Below are positions 989 through 21,123 of a stretch of DNA of 21,700 nucleotides, piece by piece. Every line of letters starts with the position of its first letter. Position 1 is the first letter of the stretch. Below the pieces are notes generated by a model. That model made no database searches and had not been told where the DNA came from. It worked only from the letters and a program-made list of their open reading frames with translations. Position numbers and translations under genes: made by a program. Source of the stretch: a virus; the IMG/VR virus record IMGVR_UViG_3300041409_000063, positions 1 to 21,700 of that record; one strand, written 5' to 3'.

Positions 989-1443
989 TGGTCGCGATCG
1001 CTCCCAATCGGTTCGGCGCCCGCGATGCGCAACCGCTGGACAGCTATTTCGGCAGCGCCAAGGATGTGCTGCAGGGCCTGTTCGGCGACAACGGCAACAA
1101 GGATATGCCGCCCTTCGCGCAGGCCGCGATCGAGCAGACCGCCCGGATCCGCGCCATCGCCGCCCGCAAATTCGGCGATGCCGAGGGCGAGGAATTGCTG
1201 GAGGCGCTGTGCGACGCCACGCTGCGGCGTCCGACCTTCATCACGCAGATGAACATGCCACCGGATCAGGTGCTGGCGATCGGCCAGTTCCGTGAAGGCA
1301 TGGGCGCCGCCGTATTTCTGTTGCTCGCCTGGATCGCCGAGGGGCGAAGCGAGCAGCCACCACAGCGAGAGGGAAGCCATGCAAAATCTACCCGCGAACG
1401 AAAGCCACGCCGTGCCGCACCGAAACCTAAGCGCAAGCGTTAG
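988..1443 (+). CDS. Hypothetical phage protein, weakly Bbp19-like (151 aa)
   Basis: The start overlaps the previous stop (TAATG), and AAAGGCGAGG lies about ten bases upstream. The first ~115 residues look like a folded helical domain: after GEELLEALCDATLRRPTF comes FREGMGAAVFLLLAWIAEG, a pattern reminiscent of the small Bbp19-type proteins found between portal and scaffold genes in Bordetella phage BPP-1 relatives. That resemblance is weak and from memory. The last ~30 residues are strongly basic (RKPRRAAPKPKRKR), which suggests nucleic acid contact or a disordered tail. The 3' end overlaps the next gene out of frame by 65 bases. The function is not known; a minor role in head assembly is inferred from position only. 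Confidence 0.75.
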   Translation: MVAIAPNRFGARDAQPLDSYFGSAKDVLQGLFGDNGNKDMPPFAQAAIEQTARIRAIAARKFGDAEGEELLEALCDATLRRPTFITQMNMPPDQVLAIGQFREGMGAAVFLLLAWIAEGRSEQPPQREGSHAKSTRERKPRRAAPKPKRKR

Positions 1444-2404
1444 CGATTTTTTGTCACGTCCCGTCGTCGCGGCCGCTGGCGCAAAAATTGGCGCTGGCGC
1501 CGCCGGCGCGTTCGCCGTCGGCCACATCAGCGCCTACCAGCCCCGCTTCGGCGCGCGCTTCCTGCTGTCGCCGGATGAACCGGCGCCCTCGCCCGCGCCC
1601 GCACCATCGCCCGCGCCCGCTCCCTCACCGGTGCCATCCCCTGCGCCGACGCCGGCTCCCTCACCGGCGCCTGGCCCGCAGCCGGCCGATGGGCCACAGG
1701 CCTATCGGCCGGAGGGCTTGCCCGACCATCTGTTTGGCGGCAGCGACAAGGAGACCATCGAAAAACTCCACGCCGCCGTCACCGGCTTTCGCAAGACGCA
1801 GGGCGATGCCGGCGTGGTGCCGGACAAGCCAGAGGCCTACGCGCTCGATGCCAGCGACAAGCTGAAACCCTATGTCGCCAATTTCGACAAGGACCCGGTG
1901 TTCAAGGCCACGCGTGAGATCGCGCACAAGGCCGGCCTGACCGACAAGACCTTCAAGGCCTTCATCGGGCCGCTGCTCGAAAGCATGGTCGATGGCGGCC
2001 TCGTGGCCGCGCCGATCGACGCCAACGAGGTGCTGCGCTCGATGGCGCCGGCGTCCATGAAGGATGCGCCCGACGCCGACAAGCTGACCGCCGGCGCCAG
2101 GCGCGTGCAGGACAACATCGCCTGGGCCGATGGCGCCAAGGCCAGCCAGGCGATCGACGGCGACATCGCTTCGTTCCTCGCCGCCTCCGCGGCGGACAAT
2201 CCGGCGGCCAACAAGCTGATCGAATGGCTGCGCGGATCCAACGGCGAAACCATTCCGGCGATGGGCGGTGGCGGCGGCAGCGGGCTCTCCGACGACGCGA
2301 TGAAATCGCGCATCAACGATCCCAAGAACAATCCGTCCTCGCCGCATTACGACAAGGCGTTCCAGCGCGAGACCGATGCGCTGACCAAGAAACATTACGG
2401 CTAA
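1379..2404 (+). CDS. Probable capsid scaffolding protein (341 aa)
   Basis: I chose the ATG at 1379 because GAGAGGGA sits a few bases upstream; the frame is open further upstream but lacks a better site. The protein has three parts. An N-terminal stretch (about 25-50) is Ala/Gly-rich and mildly hydrophobic. Residues 67-101 form a low-complexity Pro/Ala/Ser linker. The helical charged body begins at GLPDHLFGG and contains GVVPDKPEAYAL followed by AREIAHKAGL-type sequence (here TREIAHKAGLTDKTFKAF). The C-terminus (INDPKNNPSSPHYDKAF, then a basic KKHYG end) has the short charged helix typical of podoviral scaffold proteins. The place between portal and capsid genes fits a scaffold, which organises coat subunits around the portal and later leaves. 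No protease motif is visible. The first ~60 residues are less certain because they overlap the preceding gene. Confidence 0.75.
   Translation: MQNLPANESHAVPHRNLSASVSDFLSRPVVAAAGAKIGAGAAGAFAVGHISAYQPRFGARFLLSPDEPAPSPAPAPSPAPAPSPVPSPAPTPAPSPAPGPQPADGPQAYRPEGLPDHLFGGSDKETIEKLHAAVTGFRKTQGDAGVVPDKPEAYALDASDKLKPYVANFDKDPVFKATREIAHKAGLTDKTFKAFIGPLLESMVDGGLVAAPIDANEVLRSMAPASMKDAPDADKLTAGARRVQDNIAWADGAKASQAIDGDIASFLAASAADNPAANKLIEWLRGSNGETIPAMGGGGGSGLSDDAMKSRINDPKNNPSSPHYDKAFQRETDALTKKHYG
1577..1681 (+). repeat. Low-complexity Pro/Ala/Ser-coding repeat in the scaffold gene
   Basis: Near-tandem GC-rich units of the type GCGCCCTCGCCC or GCTCCCTCACCG encode repeated APSPAP-like blocks (residues 67-101 of the scaffold). 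The units are imperfect, so this is a degenerate repeat that could expand or contract by slippage. It separates the N-terminal segment from the helical scaffold body and probably encodes a flexible linker. Confidence 0.8.
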
Positions 2405-2419
2405 CAGGAGAGCGCGGCC

Positions 2420-2689
2420 ATGTCATCGTCAGCTTACGACAGTCCGGAAGATGCGACCCGCGGCTCGGCGCCGGCCAAGTCGCAGGTGCTGGTGACGCCG
2501 GCCAATGCCGACCTGCCCGGCGGCGTCTGCAAGGCGATCGAGGTGATCACGGCCGGCGACGTCGTCACGATTGCCGAAGCCGACAGCGTCGCGGTGACGC
2601 GTTTGTCGGTCGCCGCCGGCACCATCATCCCGGTCCGCATCAAGCAGGTGCGAACCGGCACCACGGCATCCGTCGTCGCCTATTACTGA
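2420..2689 (+). CDS. Spike base-like protein (RCAP_rcc01079/GhsB family pattern), 89 aa
   Basis: AGGAG lies about ten bases before the ATG. The protein shows the pattern I associate with the gene transfer agent head-spike base family: an N-terminal DSPEDATRGSAP segment, VLVTPANADLPGG, a KAIEVITAGDVVTI strand pair, then AAGTIIPVRIKQVRTGTTAS, ending in aromatic residues (VVAYY). In Rhodobacter capsulatus GTA this family anchors capsid spikes that bind host capsule. Here it stands two genes before the major capsid gene, consistent with a capsid-surface anchor. It is shorter than many relatives, which run near 100 residues. The family call is from remembered motifs; a profile search would settle it. 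A generic small beta-sandwich decoration protein is the alternative. Confidence 0.65.
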   Translation: MSSSAYDSPEDATRGSAPAKSQVLVTPANADLPGGVCKAIEVITAGDVVTIAEADSVAVTRLSVAAGTIIPVRIKQVRTGTTASVVAYY

Positions 2690-2698
2690 GGGATCGCC

Positions 2699-2836
2699 AT
2701 GACGCGCGCGGCCAACCTGCAGATCGGCCTGTCGATGGGAAGCCCGCGCGGCAGCGGCGGCGCCGCGCTTTCGTTCCGCCTGCTGTGGAACGGCAATCAA
2801 CTCGTGTGGGCCGCAGGCCGGCTGTACTGGAGCTAA
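2699..2836 (+). CDS. Short hypothetical protein (45 aa) in the putative spike module
   Basis: This small frame fills the space between the spike base-like gene and the next gene, with nine bases before it and three after it. GAGGGA upstream is a modest ribosome binding site. The peptide starts MTRAANLQIGLSMGSPRG, has a Gly/Ser-rich turn and ends with a hydrophobic, tryptophan-rich stretch (LLWNGNQLVWAAGRLYWS). There is no signal peptide or clear membrane helix. I do not recognise a family. The tight spacing and codon use matching the neighbours support translation; a small virion component working with its two neighbours is an inference. Confidence 0.6.
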   Translation: MTRAANLQIGLSMGSPRGSGGAALSFRLLWNGNQLVWAAGRLYWS

Positions 2837-2839
2837 GCG

Positions 2840-3421
2840 ATGGCTGACTATGATCTCAAAGTGATTTCCGCCGACGCCGACGGGCCGGCCAGCGACAACA
2901 GCGTGCTGTTCGGCGCCGACGATCAGTCCAGCGCGACGCCGAAGCCCTACACGTTCGGCGGCATCAAGGCATGGATCGCGGGCTTGTTCGCCAAGAAGCC
3001 GGTCGGGTTTCGCGCCACCAAGGGCGGTACCGACCAGGTCGGCATTCCCAACAGCAATTTCACCGCTGTCAGTTTTGGCACTGAGGATTACGACCAGGGC
3101 AACTACTTCTCCAGCGACGCGTGGACGCCGCCGGCCGGGCTGGTCAATCTGCAGGTGTCACTGCTTAGCTATGCTTCCAACCAGGTTGCCGGCGGCCTGT
3201 TCATCGGGTCGATCTTCAAGAACGGCGTGCGCTTCAAGGACAACTACGAGTTGGCGTTTTCCGCCGGCGTTTCCTACAGCTGCGACATCAACCTCTGGGA
3301 CGTTGCCAACGGCACCGACGTGTATTCCGTGCAGGTGAACGTCGCCACCAATGGCGGCACCACCGCCCTGTCGGGCGGGACGACGCATACCTATTTCTCC
3401 GGCACCTGCTTCCCCTCCTAA
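2840..3421 (+). CDS. Probable C1q/TNF-like head fibre or decoration protein (193 aa)
   Basis: The gene begins three bases after the preceding stop. The first ~55 residues look like an attachment segment (VLFGADDQ, then YTFGGIKAWIAGLF). From about residue 56 the sequence has the cadence of C1q/TNF-like jelly-roll domains: FRATKGG, an NFTAVSFGTEDYDQGNYF segment, WTPPAGLVNLQVSLL, IFKNGVRF, and a last strand near YFSGTCFPS. Such trimeric domains are common receptor- or glycan-binding ends of phage fibres. Because the gene sits between a spike base-like gene and the capsid gene rather than with tail genes, I infer a fibre on the head rather than on the tail. The stop codon lies inside the first copy of the 36-bp intergenic element. 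The fold call is from sequence pattern only. Confidence 0.65.
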   Translation: MADYDLKVISADADGPASDNSVLFGADDQSSATPKPYTFGGIKAWIAGLFAKKPVGFRATKGGTDQVGIPNSNFTAVSFGTEDYDQGNYFSSDAWTPPAGLVNLQVSLLSYASNQVAGGLFIGSIFKNGVRFKDNYELAFSAGVSYSCDINLWDVANGTDVYSVQVNVATNGGTTALSGGTTHTYFSGTCFPS

Positions 3422-3453
3422 CTCAGTTAACGCCGCGCGCCCTGCAGCATTCT
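3418..3453 (+). promoter_or_regulatory. Copy A of the 36-bp intergenic element (upstream of capsid gene)
   Basis: The 19-base core reads CTAACTCAGTTAACGCCGC, followed by 11 variable bases, then GCATTCT. It begins inside the TAA stop of the preceding gene and precedes the 160-base capsid leader. It matches the copies at 16741, 19316 and 19702 at fixed spacing. TTAACG (3427-3432) and CATTCT (3448-3453) are separated by 15 bases, so a host-type -35/-10 pair is conceivable but poor. A phage RNA polymerase promoter is the alternative. Function is inferred from repetition, orientation and position. Confidence 0.65.
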
Positions 3454-3612
3454 CGCCTCGACCGCGAGGGATGGACCTGCGGACGCCAACTGCAATTGCA
3501 CTCGACGAACGCTGCGCGTTCGCGAGAGGTGGACCAGAGGGCGCCGCGGCAATCGGCCGATAGCGGGTTTCTTGCAACCGTTTTTGCAACCCACAATCAG
3601 GACGATCACCCC
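3454..3612 (+). promoter_or_regulatory. Structured leader of the capsid gene
   Basis: No convincing gene lies here. The sequence holds a small stem-loop (CTCGC 3452-3456 with GCGAG 3464-3468), a 10-base palindrome TGCAATTGCA (3491-3500), a perfect 7-bp hairpin (CGAACGC 3506-3512, loop TGC, GCGTTCG 3516-3522), and the direct repeat TTGCAACC (3572-3579 and 3584-3591), which can also form a bulged hairpin starting at GGGTT 3565. AGGA at 3599-3602 is the likely ribosome binding site. A stable structured 5' leader would suit a highly expressed capsid message, but that role is inferred. Confidence 0.5.
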
Positions 3613-4470
3613 ATGAGCATCGAAGCTCCCAACTGGTACACCATCCAGTACGATACCCGCGTTCACCATCTGCTGCAGTCCGAAGGCTTCCTGTTGCGCG
3701 GCACCACCTCGGCTCCGGTCGAAGTGAAAGGCAACACGCTGGAATTCTTCTTCATGGGCCGCGGCGAAGCGCAGCCCTTCGGCAAGACGCCGGAGCGCGG
3801 CAAGGCGGCCAATCTCGGCAAGACCACCAAGACCGTCGATATGACGGACTGGCAGTTCTACGAGGAAGTCCGCCACCTCGAACCCGAAAAGATCTCCGTC
3901 GAGTACCGGTCGAAGATCCAGGAAGCCGGCGCGATGTCGCTCGGCCGCAAATTCGATCGCATCATCATGGAGGCGATGGACATCGAGGCCGGCAACATCA
4001 CCACCATCGGCAACGGCACCGCGCCGATCTCGCCGATCCAGCTCTCGACCGGCAAGGCGCAGATCAACGCGCTCGGCATGATGAAGCAGAACGAATTCTT
4101 CCTGCCGGTGCCGTCGATGTCGTGGGAGGCGCTGTGCCTCTACAAGGTGTTCAACAACAAGGACTACACCGGCGACGATCTGATCTTCAAGACCATGTCC
4201 GACGCCAAGACGTGGAACCGGATCCATGTGTTCCAGGCGCCGGACGAAATGTTCACTGCCTTCGACAGCCACAGCGTCGATACCTACCTCTGGAACAAGG
4301 CCAATGTCGGCTTCGGCCAGAACGCGCCGATGTCGTCGAAGATCACCTACGAAAACCTGATCACGGCGTGGGTCTACAACACCGTGATGTCGGGTGCGGC
4401 CAAGACGCTGCAGCCCGCCGGCGTCAAGCGCCTGCGCGTCAAGATCGACGATCCGCTGGTCATCAACTGA
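3613..4470 (+). CDS. Major capsid protein (285 aa)
   Basis: The ATG at 3613 is chosen because AGGA precedes it and because the sequence from MSIEAPNWYTIQYDTRV onward looks like a true N-terminus; the upstream in-frame extension is the structured leader. The protein forms the icosahedral shell, presumably with an HK97-type fold. Family-like features are FFFMGRGEAQPF, the DWQFYEEVRHLEPEKISVEY helix region, EAMDIEAGNITTIGNG, and FNNKDYTGDDLIFKTMSDAKTW with the conserved closing domain ending in LRVKIDDPLVIN. This recalls the capsid proteins of BPP-1-like and P22-like podoviruses of Proteobacteria. Length is modest for the class, in line with a shell assembled by a separate scaffold. It is the first gene after element A and its structured leader, and a hairpin follows the stop. 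Confidence 0.88.
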   Translation: MSIEAPNWYTIQYDTRVHHLLQSEGFLLRGTTSAPVEVKGNTLEFFFMGRGEAQPFGKTPERGKAANLGKTTKTVDMTDWQFYEEVRHLEPEKISVEYRSKIQEAGAMSLGRKFDRIIMEAMDIEAGNITTIGNGTAPISPIQLSTGKAQINALGMMKQNEFFLPVPSMSWEALCLYKVFNNKDYTGDDLIFKTMSDAKTWNRIHVFQAPDEMFTAFDSHSVDTYLWNKANVGFGQNAPMSSKITYENLITAWVYNTVMSGAAKTLQPAGVKRLRVKIDDPLVIN

Positions 4471-4531: not shown

Positions 4532-5245
4532 ATGTCCTACGACCCCAATTCCCTCGTCCGCATCGGCTCGGTGCCGTTCTCCGCGGGGGTTTCCAAGTCG
4601 GAATTCTATTACGCCACCGGCGACACCAAGGCGCAGGTGCTGACCGCGAACTACTTCAACGCCGACTACAAGCGCTTCGATATCGCCGACCGCATCACCG
4701 TGGTCTACGGCATCGGCGGCACGATCGGCACCATGGTGGTGGTCGTCACCTCGGCCAAGGGCGTATCGCCCGTGGTGGTGGCGGCGGCCGGCCAGCAGCC
4801 GCTGACCGACAACACCGGCGGCACGCCAGGCGCGTCGCTCGGCGCCAACGTGGCGAAGCAGACGGTGCTGTTGCCGCTGCAGCTGCTGGACATCGCGACC
4901 GGCACCTTCAAGGTGGCGGTCCCGTTCGCGTTCACGCTTCTGGCGACCAACTTCCGCACCGCCAAGCCGGCAACAACGGCGGCCAAGGCCGCGACCCTGA
5001 CGCCCGACATCAACGGCACGCCGGTGACCGGCGGCGTGATGGCGTTGACCTCGGCCAATCAGAACACGATCGGCGGCGCCGTCGCCGGCACCGCGGTGAC
5101 CGCCGCCAATGTCGGCACCGCGGGGCAGACCCTTGGCGTGACCGCTTCGGTGGTGACCGCGTTCATCGAAGGCGACGGCTGGGTCGAGTTCACCGTGCGC
5201 AACGATGATCTCAACAACGCGATCGCCTCCCTCAACGCGGCGTAA
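4532..5245 (+). CDS. Probable virion decoration/structural protein (237 aa)
   Basis: AGGAG (4522-4526) stands six bases before this ATG. The first ~75 residues (PNSLVRIGSVPFSAGVSKSE, then ATGDTKAQVLTANYFNADYKRFDIADRITVVYGI) look like a compact beta domain often encoded next to podoviral capsid genes. The middle is Val/Ala/Gly-rich. From about residue 135 a Thr/Ala-rich second half (PATTAAKAATLTPDINGTPV, then GGVMALTSANQNTIGG) ends in EGDGWVEFTVRNDDLNNAI. The composition and place suggest a capsid-surface decoration or minor head protein co-expressed with the coat. I cannot assign a named family. A strong terminator follows, so capsid plus this gene may form their own highly expressed unit. 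Confidence 0.6.
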   Translation: MSYDPNSLVRIGSVPFSAGVSKSEFYYATGDTKAQVLTANYFNADYKRFDIADRITVVYGIGGTIGTMVVVVTSAKGVSPVVVAAAGQQPLTDNTGGTPGASLGANVAKQTVLLPLQLLDIATGTFKVAVPFAFTLLATNFRTAKPATTAAKAATLTPDINGTPVTGGVMALTSANQNTIGGAVAGTAVTAANVGTAGQTLGVTASVVTAFIEGDGWVEFTVRNDDLNNAIASLNAA

Positions 5246-5964: not shown

Positions 5965-8406
5965 ATGGTTGCCAGGCCGGGCACCTATCAGGCTTCGAAC
6001 AACGCGGGTGAGCTGGCGCCGGAAGTGCATGGCCGCACCGACCTGAAGCAGTTCTTTGCCGGCCTTGCCACAGCTCTCAACATCGAACCGGTGCCGCAGG
6101 GCGGATCGAAGCTGTCGATGCGGACGCGGCACCTCGGCCGGATCCGCAAACTTCTGGCCGCGATCGCACTGACGGGATCGACGGTGCCGGCGGGATCCTA
6201 CGTCGCCGGCGCCGTGCTGGCGACCGCCACTTTTGTGGCATCGAACGTCTCGGTCGTGAAGCTGCCGGGCTGGGCGGCTTCGCAGCTGCTCGGCGCCATC
6301 CTGCAGGTGGAATATTTTTCCGGCGGCAACTATCTCGCCTTTGGCGCGCCGTTCACTCTCGGCGTCGATGCCGGCACGCTCGCGGTGGCGCTGCCGCCGC
6401 GGCAGTCGGTCAACACCACGGCGGTCCGGGTCCGCATGGTCTCGGCGCCGCCGTCCTCGACCAGCTTCACCGCCTCGGCTCTGGTGGTGCTGACGGAGAC
6501 CGCGACCAAGGCCAATGCGCGGGCGCGGCCGTTCACCTTCTCGCTGACGCAAACCTACGTTGCGGTGATGATGGACCATGTCGTGGATTTCTACCGCGAT
6601 GGCGTCTGGGTCGGCGCCTCCGCGACCGGCTTTGCCGAAAGCCAGCTGGCGACGCTGGACACGCCGCAGCGGCTCGACACCATGCTGCTGTTCCAGTCCA
6701 GCACCAAATCGCAGCGCATCCTGCGCGACGGCGCCGACACCAAATGGCTGCTGTCGGATATCCCGTTCGAGAATATCCCGCTGGCGGATCTCGGCGGCAG
6801 CTACGGCAACCAGCTGGTCGACACCTGGGAAATGTACATCCGCTATCCCAGCGCCGACAGCGACTTCGTCGGCGGCGCCGATGTCGCCGTCACGCTGTCG
6901 GTCAATGGCGAGAATACCGCCGTCGTCACCGGCTCGCATACGCCAGACTGGGTCGCCTTTGCCGGCAACCTCAAGGCCGCGATCGAGGCCGTCAGCACGG
7001 TCGGCCCGGGCACCACGGTGACGTCGACCACCAGCCTGGTCGGGTCGGTCAAGTTCACCATCCAATTCACCGGAGCGACCAACCTCGGCAAATCGAATTC
7101 GCTGTCGGCGCAGGTGGTCAATACCGCCGACTGCGCCGCGACCATGACGCACACCCAGACCGGCGATCCTGGTGGCGAGGACCTGTTCTCGGTCAGCCGC
7201 GGCTATGCCGCCTGCGGCAATTTCTACCAGGACCGGCTGCTGACCGGCGGTTTCAACGCCAAGCGCAGCGCCTGGCTGGCCAGCGCCACCGGGGAATATT
7301 TCGACCTCAACACCAAATTCACCGGCGCGTCCGGCGCCATCCTCGCCAACATCGACACTGATGGCGCCGAGCAGCTGCAGCGCATCGTGCGCGACAAGTA
7401 CCTGCTGCTGTTCACCTCGGACGGCGAATATTTCGTCGCCGACCGGACGCTGGATCGCACCAAGCCGCCGACCATCGTCAACTCGTCGCGCTACGGCTCG
7501 GCGGCGGATCTGCCGGTGATCGCCAATGAAGGCGAGATCATCTTTGCCTCGCACAACAAATCGGTGCTGTACGCGGCGAGCTACGACGAAGTGGCGACGT
7601 CCTATGTGTCGGCGCCGATGTCGCTGCTGGCCTCGCACATCGTCAACGGCATGACCGACATGGCGCTGCAGCGGCCGAGCGGCGTCACCAACGCGGCACG
7701 GCTGTGGATGCCGCGCGAGGACGGCAGCGCCACCGTTGGCGTGATGCTGCGCAATCAGGACGTCACCTCGTTCGTGCGCTGGCAGACGCCGGGGCTGGTC
7801 AAGTCGGCCTGCGTCGACGGCAAGAACGCGCCGCATCTGCTGGTGGAGCGGACCGTCGCCGGCGCGACCGAAATCCATCTGGAGCGGCTGGAAGACGGGC
7901 TGATCTTCGACGACGTGGTCGAACAGAGCTTCGACCCGCCGCAGGCGATCGTCACCGGGCTTGCGGTGCATGAAGGCGCTGAAGTCTGGGCCGAGACGGA
8001 TGGTTATGTCGAAGGGCCGTTCACGGTCGCATCCGGGCAGATCACGCTGGATTTCGCGGCGGCGAATGTCAGGGTTGGCCGCTGGACGCCGCCGCTCGCC
8101 AAGACGCTGCCGCTGCCCTCGGAGGTAGCCGAGCGCACCGTGCTGCGGCGGCCGAAGCGGGTGCACACCGTTCGGATCGACCTGGTCGATACCACCTCGG
8201 TGGCGGTCGGCGCCAACGACCGGCCGGCGCGCAATGTCGCGCTGTCGCGGATCTCGGACGATGTCGATGCGCCGCAGGCGCCGGTCAACCGCACCGAGGT
8301 CATCACCGGCCTGACCGGCTTCAGCGATACCGGCCAGGTCACCGTCACCCAGATCCGTCCCGGCCATCTGGCTTGGCGCGGCATCGTCATCGAAGCGCGG
8401 AGCTGA
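5965..8406 (+). CDS. Tail tubular protein B-like nozzle protein (gp12-like), 813 aa
   Basis: The ATG at 5965 lies just after the adaptor stop; an upstream in-frame start would add only 13 residues from the overlapping gene. The N-terminus YQASNNAGELAPEVHGRTDLKQF, followed by LNIEPVPQGGSKLSMRTRHLG, is the typical opening of podoviral nozzle proteins (N-x-GEL-P-x-x-GR-D, then a P-x-GG-x-x-x-R turn). The middle contains FQDRLLTGGF-like sequence (NFYQDRLLTGGFNAKRSAWL), the hallmark of the beta-propeller body. The end repeats beta strands (VTVTQIRPGHLAWRGIVIEARS). Size is close to T7 gp12 (794). The hexameric nozzle closes the tail tip and carries fibres. The stop is four bases before the next gene. 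Confidence 0.88.
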   Translation: MVARPGTYQASNNAGELAPEVHGRTDLKQFFAGLATALNIEPVPQGGSKLSMRTRHLGRIRKLLAAIALTGSTVPAGSYVAGAVLATATFVASNVSVVKLPGWAASQLLGAILQVEYFSGGNYLAFGAPFTLGVDAGTLAVALPPRQSVNTTAVRVRMVSAPPSSTSFTASALVVLTETATKANARARPFTFSLTQTYVAVMMDHVVDFYRDGVWVGASATGFAESQLATLDTPQRLDTMLLFQSSTKSQRILRDGADTKWLLSDIPFENIPLADLGGSYGNQLVDTWEMYIRYPSADSDFVGGADVAVTLSVNGENTAVVTGSHTPDWVAFAGNLKAAIEAVSTVGPGTTVTSTTSLVGSVKFTIQFTGATNLGKSNSLSAQVVNTADCAATMTHTQTGDPGGEDLFSVSRGYAACGNFYQDRLLTGGFNAKRSAWLASATGEYFDLNTKFTGASGAILANIDTDGAEQLQRIVRDKYLLLFTSDGEYFVADRTLDRTKPPTIVNSSRYGSAADLPVIANEGEIIFASHNKSVLYAASYDEVATSYVSAPMSLLASHIVNGMTDMALQRPSGVTNAARLWMPREDGSATVGVMLRNQDVTSFVRWQTPGLVKSACVDGKNAPHLLVERTVAGATEIHLERLEDGLIFDDVVEQSFDPPQAIVTGLAVHEGAEVWAETDGYVEGPFTVASGQITLDFAAANVRVGRWTPPLAKTLPLPSEVAERTVLRRPKRVHTVRIDLVDTTSVAVGANDRPARNVALSRISDDVDAPQAPVNRTEVITGLTGFSDTGQVTVTQIRPGHLAWRGIVIEARS

Positions 8407-16784: not shown

Positions 16785-19319
16785 ATGAGCATCGCCTTTC
16801 CGCTGCCGCGCCAGACCCGCCAGGCGACCCTGACCGCCGGCGCCGGGCAGACCGTGTTCGGCCCGTTCGACTTCATCCTGTTCGATCCTGATGACGTCGA
16901 GATCCGGGTGCGATCGCCGATCACCACCTTCGTCAAACTGGCGGACGATCAGTACGTCGTGGCGCCGGCCTCGCCGGTGATTGCCTTTCCGGCGCTGTTC
17001 ACGGTCACGCTGCTGACGCCGCGGCAATATGGCGACACGGTCTGGATCAAGGGCGCGCGAACGGGATCCCGCACCACCGACGTGACCCGCGCCGGCAAGG
17101 TGCAGTCGCAGCCGCTGGAGACGGAGTTCGACCGCATCGTCGCGACCGAACAGGAGCTGCGCCGCGACATTGATGAGGTGACGGCATCGCTGCCCATCAA
17201 TGCCGATGACATCCTGGCGGATGCGGTCGCCGCGCGCGATGCCTCGCAGGCGGCGGCGTCGCTGGCGGCGGGTTACGCCGCTGCGCTTGGCAACGCCGTG
17301 CATCAATACGACACGCGCGCGCAGGCGATCGCGGCCGTGATCCCGGCCGGCGTCGGCCTGGTGCTGCTGCTCGGCCGCGGCTTCCCCGGCGATCTTGGCG
17401 GCGGGCTCTACAAGAAACTCGGTGGCGCGCCAGGCGCGGTGCGGTCATGGCACTGGCAGAATACGGCCGCCGGCACCTGGTGGCAGCTGGTCGAGCGCAC
17501 CGTCAATCCGCGGATGTTCGGGTCGGTCGGCAACAACGTCGCCGACGACTACCAGCCCTTGCGCGATTGCGGCGAATATCTCGCGGCGTTCGTTCCGGGC
17601 GGCACCTATAACGGCATCGGCGGCGACATCTACAAGGCAGTGATCACGACAGCGACGCCGGATCTCGGCCTGCCGCTGCCCGCCGGCATCAAGGCGATCG
17701 GCAACGGCGCCGCGATCCGCTTCAGTTGCGCCGGCCACGTTTACGGCATGCGGCCGCTCGGCAGCAACCGGATCAGCGGCTGGGACTTCAAGGTGGTGTC
17801 CTCCACCGGGCTCAGCGCCACGCCCGGCGCCGAGCAGGCGATATGGCACGCTCCGATTGCGCCTGGCTGCGCCTATGGCGATGGCGGCACCGTTGCCAGC
17901 CCTTCCGCCTTTTGCGCACCGTCCGATATCGAGATCGACCATTGTTTGTTCGATAGCGTCAGGAACAATGGTCAGGGCGGCCTGATCCAGGGGTTCGGCG
18001 GCGGCGACAATATCGACATTCACGACAACACATTTCCCGACAACGCGACGATCTGCATCGCCATCGGCTTCGACTGGTTGCCGCAGGGCGCGATTGACGA
18101 AGCCAATCTGACCGCCACCAAGGCGGCCTATCTCGCCATCCCGCGCACGGCCCAGACCTTGCACTGGTCCAACATCAAGATCCGCTACAACCGGATCGGC
18201 AAGATGACGATGCCGGCGACACTGTCGGGATCAACTCCGACGTTCGGCTCGCATGGCATTCGCCTTTCCGGCGCTGTGTCGTGGGATGTCAGCCACAACA
18301 CGATCGGGTCAACGTCATATTGCGGCATCTTCATCACCGGCGGCGATCTCGCGCTGGAATACACGTCCGATGCGACGCAGCGAGTTGCCGCGTTCCGAGA
18401 CTGCTACATGGCCGGCAACACGCTGAAGAACAACAACAGCGGCCTTGGCATTGCCGTCGATTGCTATCCGGACAACATCTACGGCGCCTTCACCAACCCG
18501 GCCAACCCGCAATATCCGTATGCCCCGATCTATCTGGCCGTGTACCCGACCAACATGGTGATCGAGAACAACAAGCTGGCCGGCAACGGCGCCTCCGGAT
18601 GCCTGGAGGGTATCTTTCTGACGCAATTGCTCGGCGGCTCCGTGCGCGGCAACGCTGTCCAGTTCCACAAGAACGGAATTTCGCTTGGCAACGGCTGCGT
18701 CGACACCAAGGTCACCGAGACCAATTACATCACGAATTGCCGTGAAGCAGGCATTCTCGTCCACGGCGGCAGCGTGCCGCCGAAAAACTGCATCATCCAC
18801 GACAACGCGGTCTTTGGAAATTACACGGCCGCATCCGGTGCGCAGGGCAACATCTGCATCGACAATGCGATCCGAACCTGCGTCAGCCACAATCATGTCG
18901 GTGCCGGCGAAGCGACCGCAGACGTCGGGATCAACAATACGGCCAATGCGGTCTACACCACGATCGAGAAAAACCATGTCGAGGCGGTCAAGGCCGGCGG
19001 CATCGCCTACAAACTGGCGAATGTGCAGTCCAGTGTCTGGGTATTCCAGGACAACAAGTACGACGGCGCCGATACCTACCTGAGCGGGCTCGACATCCTG
19101 CCGGTGAGCCGAACCGCAACGACGGCGGCAGGCAAGATGGTGACGCACTATCATGTCAAGCAGTCGGCGATGAGCGGCAACAAGCCCAATGCCGGCGCTT
19201 ATGTGGCCGGCGATACGCTTCAGGTGCCGGACGCCACGAACACATCGGACGTCTACACGAGCAAGTGCACGGTGGCCGGCGCCCAGGGAACATGGAAAAC
19301 GACCTGTGCGCTGCCCTAA
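16785..19319 (+). CDS. Tail spike/fibre with parallel beta-helix, possible depolymerase (844 aa)
   Basis: The ATG follows element B and lacks a clear ribosome binding site. Residues 1-110 resemble the T7 gp17-type virion-attachment domain (GAGQTVFGPFDFILFDPDDV and later TDVTRAGKVQSQPLETEFDR). A short helical coiled neck (about 110-168, TEQELRRDIDEVTAS and AARDASQAAASLAAGYAAAL) follows. From about 245 (RMFGSVGNNVADDYQPL, GIGNGAAIRFSCAGH-like sequence) to about 770 there are repeated beta-helix turns, such as NIDIHDNTF, IKIRYNRIG, VIENNKLAGNGA, IIHDNAVFGN and TIEKNHVEA. This is the pectate lyase-like fold of phage spikes that bind or cut surface polysaccharide. A small C-terminal domain ends SKCTVAGAQGTWKTTCALP. 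The helix carries unusually many cysteines for an extracellular fold. Catalytic residues cannot be picked out by eye, so enzymatic activity is inferred. Confidence 0.85.
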   Translation: MSIAFPLPRQTRQATLTAGAGQTVFGPFDFILFDPDDVEIRVRSPITTFVKLADDQYVVAPASPVIAFPALFTVTLLTPRQYGDTVWIKGARTGSRTTDVTRAGKVQSQPLETEFDRIVATEQELRRDIDEVTASLPINADDILADAVAARDASQAAASLAAGYAAALGNAVHQYDTRAQAIAAVIPAGVGLVLLLGRGFPGDLGGGLYKKLGGAPGAVRSWHWQNTAAGTWWQLVERTVNPRMFGSVGNNVADDYQPLRDCGEYLAAFVPGGTYNGIGGDIYKAVITTATPDLGLPLPAGIKAIGNGAAIRFSCAGHVYGMRPLGSNRISGWDFKVVSSTGLSATPGAEQAIWHAPIAPGCAYGDGGTVASPSAFCAPSDIEIDHCLFDSVRNNGQGGLIQGFGGGDNIDIHDNTFPDNATICIAIGFDWLPQGAIDEANLTATKAAYLAIPRTAQTLHWSNIKIRYNRIGKMTMPATLSGSTPTFGSHGIRLSGAVSWDVSHNTIGSTSYCGIFITGGDLALEYTSDATQRVAAFRDCYMAGNTLKNNNSGLGIAVDCYPDNIYGAFTNPANPQYPYAPIYLAVYPTNMVIENNKLAGNGASGCLEGIFLTQLLGGSVRGNAVQFHKNGISLGNGCVDTKVTETNYITNCREAGILVHGGSVPPKNCIIHDNAVFGNYTAASGAQGNICIDNAIRTCVSHNHVGAGEATADVGINNTANAVYTTIEKNHVEAVKAGGIAYKLANVQSSVWVFQDNKYDGADTYLSGLDILPVSRTATTAAGKMVTHYHVKQSAMSGNKPNAGAYVAGDTLQVPDATNTSDVYTSKCTVAGAQGTWKTTCALP

Positions 19320-19767: not shown

Positions 19768-20592
19768 ATGTCCCGCTGGCCTCACGACGATCCCGCTTCG
19801 CTCGCCGCCTTCTACGGCGATCCCGATCAAGGCGAGCCGGACAAGCAGCTGGTGCCGGTGGTGCCGCCGTTTGCGATGTATTACGCCGGCAAGCGGGTGC
19901 CTCACATCATGTTCCATCGCAAGGCGGCGTCGGCGCTGGCCGCCGCGCTTTCCGAAATCTGGGAGACGTGCCAGCGCAGCCAGGCCAGGATCGACGCGGC
20001 GCGGATCTCGATCTTTTCCGGCGCCTACAATCCGCGCTACGTCCGCGGCTATGAGCCCGGCAACGCCGCCGGCCGCACGCCGCGCTGGTCGAACCATGCC
20101 TATGGCGCCGCAATCGACTTTGACGCCCCGCATAACGGTTTCAACACCGGGCGCGGCACCATGCCGAATTTCGTGGTGGACGCCTTCAAGCGCCAGGGCG
20201 CGTTGTGGGGCGGCGACTATCGCGGCCGCACCGACCCAATGCATTTCGAATTCTGCTCGCGCGATGTCGCGCCGGTGGCGTTCGCCGACGTGCCGCAGGC
20301 CGATGGCGACAGCGACGCCGCCGCCGCCGATGCAGCGCCGCTGCCGCAGGGTGTGCCGACGCCGGTGACGCCGGCCGGCACTGCGTCCGGCTTCTTCGGC
20401 CGTGCCCGCAACTGGATCGTGGCCGCGGCCTCAAGCGTCGGCTTCGGCGGCCTCGGCGCGTTGAGCAATTGGGAAATAGCGGCCGTGGTGTTCGGCTTCC
20501 TGTTTCTCAGCGTGGTCGGCATCGTCACCTTCATCATTCTTTTCTTCGGCGCCGAACCGGTGCGGCAGTGGGTGCGGAGGCACGTGGCATGA
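19768..20592 (+). CDS. M15-family peptidase endolysin with C-terminal membrane anchor (274 aa)
   Basis: The start at 19768 follows TTTGGACG; upstream frame has no better site. Residues 1-170 form a D-Ala-D-Ala carboxypeptidase/L-Ala-D-Glu endopeptidase-type domain. The zinc motif SNHAYGAAID gives His110 and Asp117; DPMHFEF gives His159 and Glu161, the expected order for family M15. Its substrate is the peptide part of peptidoglycan. The segment before it, ARISIFSGAYNPRYVRGYEP, is the usual strand leading to the site. Residues 172-215 are an Asp/Ala/Pro-rich linker. Hydrophobic stretches follow at about 216-233 and, strongly, 237-262 (AAVVFGFLFLSVVGIVTFII), ending in a basic WVRRHVA tail. There is no N-terminal signal. 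An endolysin tethered at its C-terminus is unusual. The stop overlaps the next start (ATGA). Confidence 0.85.
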   Translation: MSRWPHDDPASLAAFYGDPDQGEPDKQLVPVVPPFAMYYAGKRVPHIMFHRKAASALAAALSEIWETCQRSQARIDAARISIFSGAYNPRYVRGYEPGNAAGRTPRWSNHAYGAAIDFDAPHNGFNTGRGTMPNFVVDAFKRQGALWGGDYRGRTDPMHFEFCSRDVAPVAFADVPQADGDSDAAAADAAPLPQGVPTPVTPAGTASGFFGRARNWIVAAASSVGFGGLGALSNWEIAAVVFGFLFLSVVGIVTFIILFFGAEPVRQWVRRHVA

Positions 20593-20849
20593 ATTTCATT
20601 TCCGGCCTTGCCGCCAAATTCGCCACGCAGCTGATCATCGGCGGCGTGGTGGCGCTGATCGCGGGCGCCGGCTTCCTCGGCTTCAAGGTCCACTACACCA
20701 ACGCAGGCTACCAGCGCGCGCTCGACGACATCGCCGCTGACAACAAGGAGGCGATCGATGCGGGGAATAAGGCTGTTGGCCGTGTGCGTGCTTGCTGGAA
20801 CGCTGGCCGCGTGTGGAACTCTACCGAAGGTGTCTGTGCAGGGCGGTGA
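20589..20849 (+). CDS. Probable inner-membrane spanin-like protein (86 aa)
   Basis: ATGA overlap with the endolysin stop indicates coupled translation. Residues 1-12 are short and polar, 13-35 form one membrane helix (ATQLIIGGVVALIAGAGFLG), and the remaining ~50 residues would face the periplasm, with a charged helix (GYQRALDDIAADNKEAIDAG) and two cysteines near the end. The type II membrane topology and the out-of-frame overlap with a lipoprotein gene resemble Rz/Rz1 two-component spanins, which fuse inner and outer membranes at the last step of lysis. At 86 residues it is much shorter than typical Rz (about 150), so its reach across the periplasm would depend on the longer lipoprotein. The role is inferred from arrangement. 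Confidence 0.65.
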   Translation: MNFISGLAAKFATQLIIGGVVALIAGAGFLGFKVHYTNAGYQRALDDIAADNKEAIDAGNKAVGRVRACWNAGRVWNSTEGVCAGR

Positions 20850-21123
20850 GGATCACGTGCTCAAGGGGCCTGAGGTCGCCGTCAAGGGCGCCACCGATTT
20901 CGACCAGCGCTGGATCGACGAGACCACGGAAGCCGGTATCGCCGGGCTCGGCTGGCAGCGGCCGGCCGCGCGGCCGCCGGAGTGGGACAAGCCGCTGGCG
21001 AAACATGCGCGCGCGCCGATCCCCGACGTGATCCCGCCGGATGCGAAGCCGGTCGTTAAAAAAAAGCGCTGGCGCGATCGCATCCGTGGATTGATGCATC
21101 GCGCGCCCGTCGAAGGCGGCTGA
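20758..21123 (+). CDS. Outer-membrane lipoprotein, probable o-spanin (121 aa)
   Basis: AAGGAGG (20745-20751) lies six bases before the ATG, inside the preceding gene; the two genes overlap out of frame by 92 bases, the Rz/Rz1 arrangement. The signal sequence MRGIRLLAVCVLAGTLAACG has a clear lipobox with Cys19 as the lipidated residue. Gly20 follows it, with no Asp retention signal, so outer-membrane sorting is expected. The mature part is Pro-rich (PAARPPEWDKPLAKHARAPI, IPPDAKPVV) and ends with a basic cluster (KKKRWRDRIRGLMHR). Rz1 proteins are proline-rich but usually only about 60 residues, so this one is long, which may balance the short partner. A general phage lipoprotein is the alternative. 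The stop overlaps the next start (TGATG). Confidence 0.72.
   Translation: MRGIRLLAVCVLAGTLAACGTLPKVSVQGGEDHVLKGPEVAVKGATDFDQRWIDETTEAGIAGLGWQRPAARPPEWDKPLAKHARAPIPDVIPPDAKPVVKKKRWRDRIRGLMHRAPVEGG

Follow-up and report, generated by a model that had tools for sequence, protein, structure and literature searches.

A candidate capsid-vertex spike cassette with a GhsB-family base and a C1q-like fibre tip in a T7-like podovirus

A three-gene cassette between the scaffold and capsid genes

We identified three consecutive genes between the scaffold-like and major capsid genes of a short-tailed phage that probably make up an optional cassette for a spike at the capsid vertices, composed of a GhsB-family base, a 45-residue linker and a fibre with a C1q-like tip. 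The genes lie on the plus strand of an IMG/VR virus sequence, a 21.7-kb fragment referred to here as the window. The data show the family of the base, the C1q fold of the tip, a conserved insertion site with exchanged fibres, and a likeness of the linker ends to known or recurrent docking peptides. An earlier note on this DNA had proposed a head-spike module at this position. Its gene identities stood and its head-spike reading gained support, notably from a relative with a GhsB–GhsA pair at the same site, whilst the position of the products in the virion is a prediction.

The window begins with a portal gene (PF12236) and small genes, followed by the scaffold-like gene, the three cassette genes, the capsid gene and a decoration-like gene. 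Beyond these lie tail tubular and nozzle-like genes, then large genes resembling those for internal virion proteins, and finally a tail-spike-like gene and a probable lysis region. A portal combined with tail tubular and nozzle-like genes fits a podovirus, as does the fact that no tape-measure gene was seen. The siphovirus-like tail of the gene transfer agent (GTA) head–tail cluster was not seen in the window either, and an RcGTA-type gene transfer agent was ruled out for the whole element by its tail and capsid genes. The 5′ neighbour of the cassette (1379–2404, plus strand) was assigned as scaffold-like from its position and a weak match to the T7 capsid-assembly family PF05396 (16.2 bits against a cut-off of 27.1). 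The 3′ neighbour (3613–4470, plus strand) encodes the major capsid protein (PF19821, E=4e-59; PHROG 3437), and the placing of all three frames between scaffold and capsid genes was thus borne out. The tail-spike-like gene at 16785 has an N-terminus resembling that of a 751-aa protein in a relative.

The cassette frames occupy positions 2420–2689 (89 aa), 2699–2836 (45 aa) and 2840–3421 (193 aa), as first described. Their third-codon-position G+C was 0.85, 0.89 and 0.85, respectively, in line with the neighbouring genes of the window (0.77–0.93), compared with 0.55 and 0.54 for two competing frames examined (2224–2844 and 3075–3335). A Shine–Dalgarno-like stretch precedes every cassette start (3/3), and the spacing between the genes is tight. 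Because its codon-position composition and ribosome-binding site match those of genes, the 45-codon frame behaves like a real gene. The 207-aa frame at 2224–2847, which overlaps the cassette genes, was rejected on its non-coding codon composition.

A base protein of the GhsB family

The first gene (2420–2689, plus strand) encodes an 89-aa spike base protein of the GhsB/RCAP_Rcc01079 family. It scored 43.6 bits against NCBIfam model NF048002, for which the curated cut-off is 28, and the same model reached 42.6 bits in a six-frame search of the window's record. The product also matched the solved GhsB structure (PDB 6tb9_E3), at E=0.0012 as a single sequence and E=1.5e-6 as a profile. Profile searching, which might have placed the product outside the spike base family, instead put it above the NF048002 cut-off and, together with the GhsB match, upheld the family assignment made from the sequence pattern. 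Comparison across five related phages revealed that the N-terminal 19 residues (codons at 2420–2476, plus strand) were the most conserved part of the protein: invariant residues filled 9 of these 19 columns, compared with 9 of the other 70. The N-terminus of Rcc01079 is the part that binds the capsid protein in RcGTA (PMC7296036), and by analogy this stretch is likely the capsid-docking segment. An AlphaFold2 model of the homologue built from five sequences had a pLDDT of 46.8, too low for fold comparison. A further structure, PDB 8cjz ('Spike Base Protein'), matches a typical member of the family; our literature search found no paper naming that entry.

Members of this family are also deposited under other names. 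GhsB-family proteins appear as 'tail fiber protein' or 'hypothetical protein' in JQ066768, NC_029047, MT497078 and other entries from phages of Rhodobacter, Verrucomicrobia and Flavobacterium, and PHROG 12296, which labels GhsB-family proteins tail fibre, inherits the tail label. A spike-base gene above the cut-off was present in 62 of 398 Hyphomicrobiales genomes, in many cases followed by long genes with glycine-rich alternating N-termini. Such a module had been considered notable in a podovirus, but this proved less exceptional than supposed, as members of the family were also found in Flavobacterium phages whose names mark them as podoviruses (vB_FspP_elemo), and in several further phages, where they had passed unnoticed or been labelled 'tail fiber protein'.

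A short fibre with a C1q-like tip

The third gene (2840–3421, plus strand) encodes a 193-aa protein that by itself matched no Pfam, NCBIfam or PHROG family, with nothing in Pfam at E-values up to 10. Single-sequence searches of Pfam and the PDB gave nothing useful, and it was a 23-sequence profile and a structural model that succeeded. Residues 55–193 (3002–3418, plus strand) have relatives, about 20–43 % identical, at the C-termini of many phage fibres, in one case after collagen-like repeats. The profile of these relatives matched a C1q-related factor in the PDB at E=3.6e-4. AlphaFold2 modelled the whole protein with a pLDDT of 85.6, mostly above 90 within residues 55–193, and the top PDB matches of this model in Foldseek were the C1q domains of C1QL1 and Caprin-2 (probability 1.00, target TM 0.80–0.81). 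The C1q/TNF-like jelly roll suggested earlier for this gene was therefore recovered by both profile and model. We claim a C1q fold rather than membership of a Pfam family, because the sequence is divergent and without a Pfam match; the tip is probably trimeric. The GhsA fibre domain NF048003 had no match in this gene or anywhere in the window's record, which rules out the product as a GhsA-family fibre.

The start of the fibre has a different distribution from its tip. Residues 1–47 (2840–2980, plus strand) are 68 % and 64 % identical to the fibres of two otherwise unrelated phages, L009 and L010, and weaker similarity was found in a third, L223. The C-terminal parts of the L009 and L010 fibres differ from that of the window fibre. 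A shared start combined with differing C-terminal parts is what one normally sees where a docking segment carries an exchangeable tip, and residues 1–47 would accordingly be a fibre dock.

A 45-residue putative linker

The middle gene (2699–2836, plus strand) encodes the putative linker, for which profile searches including NCBIfam and PHROG returned no family match; a blastn search of 2699–2998 against plasmids gave short chance matches only. Residues 5–13 (A-N-L-Q-I-G-L-S-M; 2711–2737, plus strand) reproduce the pattern of the peptide with which GhsA plugs the pentameric GhsB, and may form a plug of five pegs between A5 and M13. The gene after the base thus carries, at the level of pattern only, an alternating hydrophobic plug-like peptide, and it is the only plus-strand ORF of 40 codons or more in the window with a run of four alternating hydrophobics. 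Such N-termini are enriched in genes that follow GhsB. GhsB genes were collected from Alphaproteobacteria, Hyphomicrobiales and phages. An N-terminal run of at least four alternating hydrophobics was present in 18/80 of the genes directly following them and in 8/1227 other genes (p=2e-17), a value that is indicative only because the criterion was set once RcGTA and some of the examples had been seen, some of these being among the 80. Shuffles of the 45-residue protein also reached the pattern in 2.7 % of cases, which makes it a weak indicator by itself for a single protein of this length.

The other end of the protein (2777–2833, plus strand) contains three tryptophans, W30, W37 and W44, at a period of seven, and is a putative fibre dock. 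The same spacing was found in L009, L010, L222 and L223. A 115-residue protein of L009 matched by BLASTP at E=2e-7 and also ends in three period-seven tryptophans. Its gene stops three base pairs before a fibre that shares the N-terminus of the window fibre, an arrangement as in the window. A strict triple-tryptophan scan of all viral contigs returned five places, comprising L009 and L010, which were already known, and L221, L222 and L223. The L221 hit was spurious, being a 21-codon frame that overlaps longer ORFs. In L223, the motif is present in three copies, and the next gene encodes a fibre beginning with the N-terminal segment shared by the window and L009 (E=1e-8 to the fibre of the latter); in L010, the corresponding fibre gene is the second one downstream. 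In L222 the motif ends a baseplate-like protein, and the next gene encodes a long fibre-like protein with a different start. This recurrence with fibre genes suggests that the triple-tryptophan motif most likely receives the fibre N-terminus. The strict DNA pattern was absent from the 398 Hyphomicrobiales genomes, and its canonical form is therefore rare there. The L223 protein (7341–7640, 99 aa) has its three sets of tryptophan triplets one after another and immediately precedes a 518-aa fibre; it might hold several fibres.

Judged from these sequence features, the 45-residue protein seems to be a detached linker, one whose single chain might join a fivefold base to a threefold fibre. The number of pegs (five) equals the subunits of a pentameric base and that of tryptophans (three) the chains of a trimeric C1q fibre, a correspondence that we infer. 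We think it possible, though somewhat doubtful, that the protein is a single-chain symmetry adaptor in which pegs A5, L7, I9, L11 and M13 fill the five GhsB pockets and W30, W37 and W44 engage the three fibre chains, the triple-tryptophan motif being a general fibre-docking code that, appended by phages to bases on heads, to baseplates or to bases elsewhere, allows fibres to be exchanged.

Optional carriage at the scaffold–capsid junction

A portal profile was used to gather 74 relatives, a capsid query against genome contigs having returned none. The portal-to-capsid distance was 1334–1806 bp in 40 of the 44 unique loci with both genes (window included), and was longer only in L004, L006, L071 and the window itself. 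Locus L006 (IMG/VR phage 3300042997_002643) has a capsid protein 75 % identical to that of the window and carries, at the same junction, a spike-base gene just above the NF048002 cut-off. This is followed by a fibre gene whose product scored 97.7 bits against NF048003 (cut-off 36) and matched the GhsA structure PDB 6tb9_F3 at E=1.7e-8. GhsB occurs alone at the junction in L004, and likewise in L005/L008; a search of the 38.9-kb L004 record for a plug- or linker-like gene elsewhere revealed none that was convincing. The L032 contig ends within a GhsB-like gene. L071 encodes a 510-residue two-domain protein ahead of the capsid, the start of which resembles the decoration-like gene after the capsid gene and the middle of which is a GhsA-like domain below the cut-off. 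The cassette is absent from the junction in the close relatives L007, L031, L034 and L035, and L009 has the pair of fibre and triple-tryptophan protein without any GhsB match.

Alignment of seven loci indicated that the untranslated stretch before the capsid gene (3422–3612, plus strand), which marks the 3′ limit of the insertion, is partly conserved in relatives both with and without the cassette; the cassette therefore sits directly after the scaffold gene. Conserved non-coding blocks, among them ACCGCGAGGGATGGACCTGCGG and GGCAATCGGCCGATAGCGGG, were observed before the capsid gene in the window (3422–3612), L004, L006, L007, L008, L031 and L034. Rfam returned no match for this element, which is possibly a leader or processing signal.

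Since L006 has a GhsB–GhsA pair at the junction, and others have GhsB alone or nothing, the genes are best described from these comparisons as an optional cassette in which the base is conserved and the fibre can be exchanged. Of the evidence for the spike reading, these comparisons are the strongest. We read the scaffold–capsid junction as a position at which adhesins of the head region are gained and lost.

Head or tail location

In the proposed arrangement, the GhsB-family base, presumably a pentamer, would dock via its N-terminus onto the capsid pentons, as in RcGTA. The alternating hydrophobic N-terminal peptide of the linker would plug this base, and the triple-tryptophan C-terminus would hold the N-terminus of the 193-residue fibre. 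The C1q-like, probably trimeric, tip would then touch the host surface first, with the tail spike (16785) engaging later. We infer the head location, the pentamer and trimer stoichiometry and the linker contacts, as well as adhesion through binding of host polysaccharide and the receptor.

Several observations run against a head location. In other phages, genes of the GhsB family are often neighbours of tail or lysis genes, those of RcapNL and P8625 being near tail genes; C1q-like domains are commonest on tail fibres; and the triple-tryptophan motif of L222 is on a baseplate-like protein. Together with the tail-fibre label of PHROG 12296, these would agree with a GhsB homologue and C1q fibre borne on the tail, for instance as extra collar fibres, the adjacency to the capsid gene being incidental. 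We regard this as unlikely. The family member whose structure is solved occupies the capsid pentons (PMC7296036), several relatives have the cassette placed between scaffold and capsid genes, and a tail-spike-like gene is already present in this phage; the label of PHROG 12296 came by annotation transfer, which is no localization.

Separate roles for the genes were also considered, whereby the base alone would be a vertex cap or decoration, and the 45-residue protein and C1q fibre, for example as a tail-borne adhesin, would merely share its insertion site. The loci with a base and no adjoining fibre (L004, L005/L008) are consistent with this, as are the failure to find a convincing linker-like gene elsewhere in L004 and the fibre and triple-tryptophan pair of L009. 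However, plug-like N-termini are frequent directly after GhsB and the 45-residue gene fits that pattern, and the same kind of base in L006 is followed by a true GhsA fibre, so that we find separate roles rather improbable. That the cassette is a degraded or chance assembly, with an untranslated 45-codon frame and a remnant fibre, is very improbable: the frame is short and without a family match, yet codon-position composition, ribosome-binding sites and tight spacing all indicate genes, the C1q fold is intact and the triple-tryptophan end is recurrent.

Relation to known systems

Head spikes of the GhsB family are already known from RcGTA, and vertex head fibres with other bases from phage 7-7-1. 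The window cassette resembles the RcGTA head spike of Rhodobacter capsulatus (GhsB Rcc01079 and GhsA Rcc01080) in that the base belongs to the same curated family, the next gene starts with an alternating hydrophobic peptide and the product is presumed to be a capsid-vertex adhesin. It differs in having plug and fibre on two separate proteins, a C1q-like tip instead of the GhsA domain, and a position inside the head operon of a T7-like podovirus, whereas the RcGTA genes occupy an ectopic locus of a siphovirus-like GTA. The L006 cassette belongs to the same phage group, junction and base family (NF048002), but has a single-chain GhsA-type fibre (NF048003) where the window has linker and C1q fibre. 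C1q-tipped phage tail fibres share the homologous C-terminal domain (about 20–43 % identical) and are mostly long, unlike the 193-aa protein encoded here in the head gene region.

Agrobacterium phage 7-7-1 carries one flexible fibre per capsid vertex for first host contact (PMC12796354). The spike proposed here would share this vertex position and role. The 7-7-1 base is attributed to an Ig-type linker protein, and the passages on it mention no GhsB homology. Capsid-fibre genes have also been mentioned for Rhizobium phage 16-3 and others (PMC11409702, published in 2024). Our literature search, which covered mainly open-access papers, found neither the GhsB family in T7-like phages nor a scaffold–capsid cassette described.

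If the proposed reading is true, short-tailed phages proper possess GTA-type head spikes in the form of an accessory cassette that can be exchanged, which would suggest where the head spikes of GTAs came from and how phages swap first-contact adhesins whilst leaving the tail untouched. The 45-residue protein would be a small and directly testable candidate solution to a recurrent structural problem, the joining of a fivefold base to a threefold fibre. To our knowledge, neither a split linker nor the triple-tryptophan motif has been described.

Other features of the window and its relatives

The likely lysis region of the window (19777–20592 and 20758–21123) encodes a peptidase of the M15 type that has a membrane segment at its C-terminus, together with a small lipoprotein-like product. 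Next after the capsid gene comes a member of PHROG 18004, a family with no assigned function, and its product shares a core of ~85 residues between the window (4532–5245), L004 (5916–6185) and L006 (5922–6191). In L004 and L006 it stops at the core (89 aa), whereas the window version adds a tail of ~150 residues, and in L071 (10826–12355) a similar core is fused to the GhsA-like domain ahead of the capsid gene. The PHROG 18004 protein resembles a decoration protein of the head whose extensions vary. In L004 (4873–5000), the capsid gene is extended from an in-frame upstream ATG in place of the usual start codon, which adds about 43 residues of hydrophobic, signal-like leader (MSRYNRFAVRFAIAFAIGIAALSLLGY...). 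Finally, L217, which belongs to the same record as L004, carries a 669-aa membrane acyltransferase-like gene (2327–4336) on the opposite strand, adjoining the tail-spike gene; its product may alter host surface polysaccharide as a form of lysogenic conversion.
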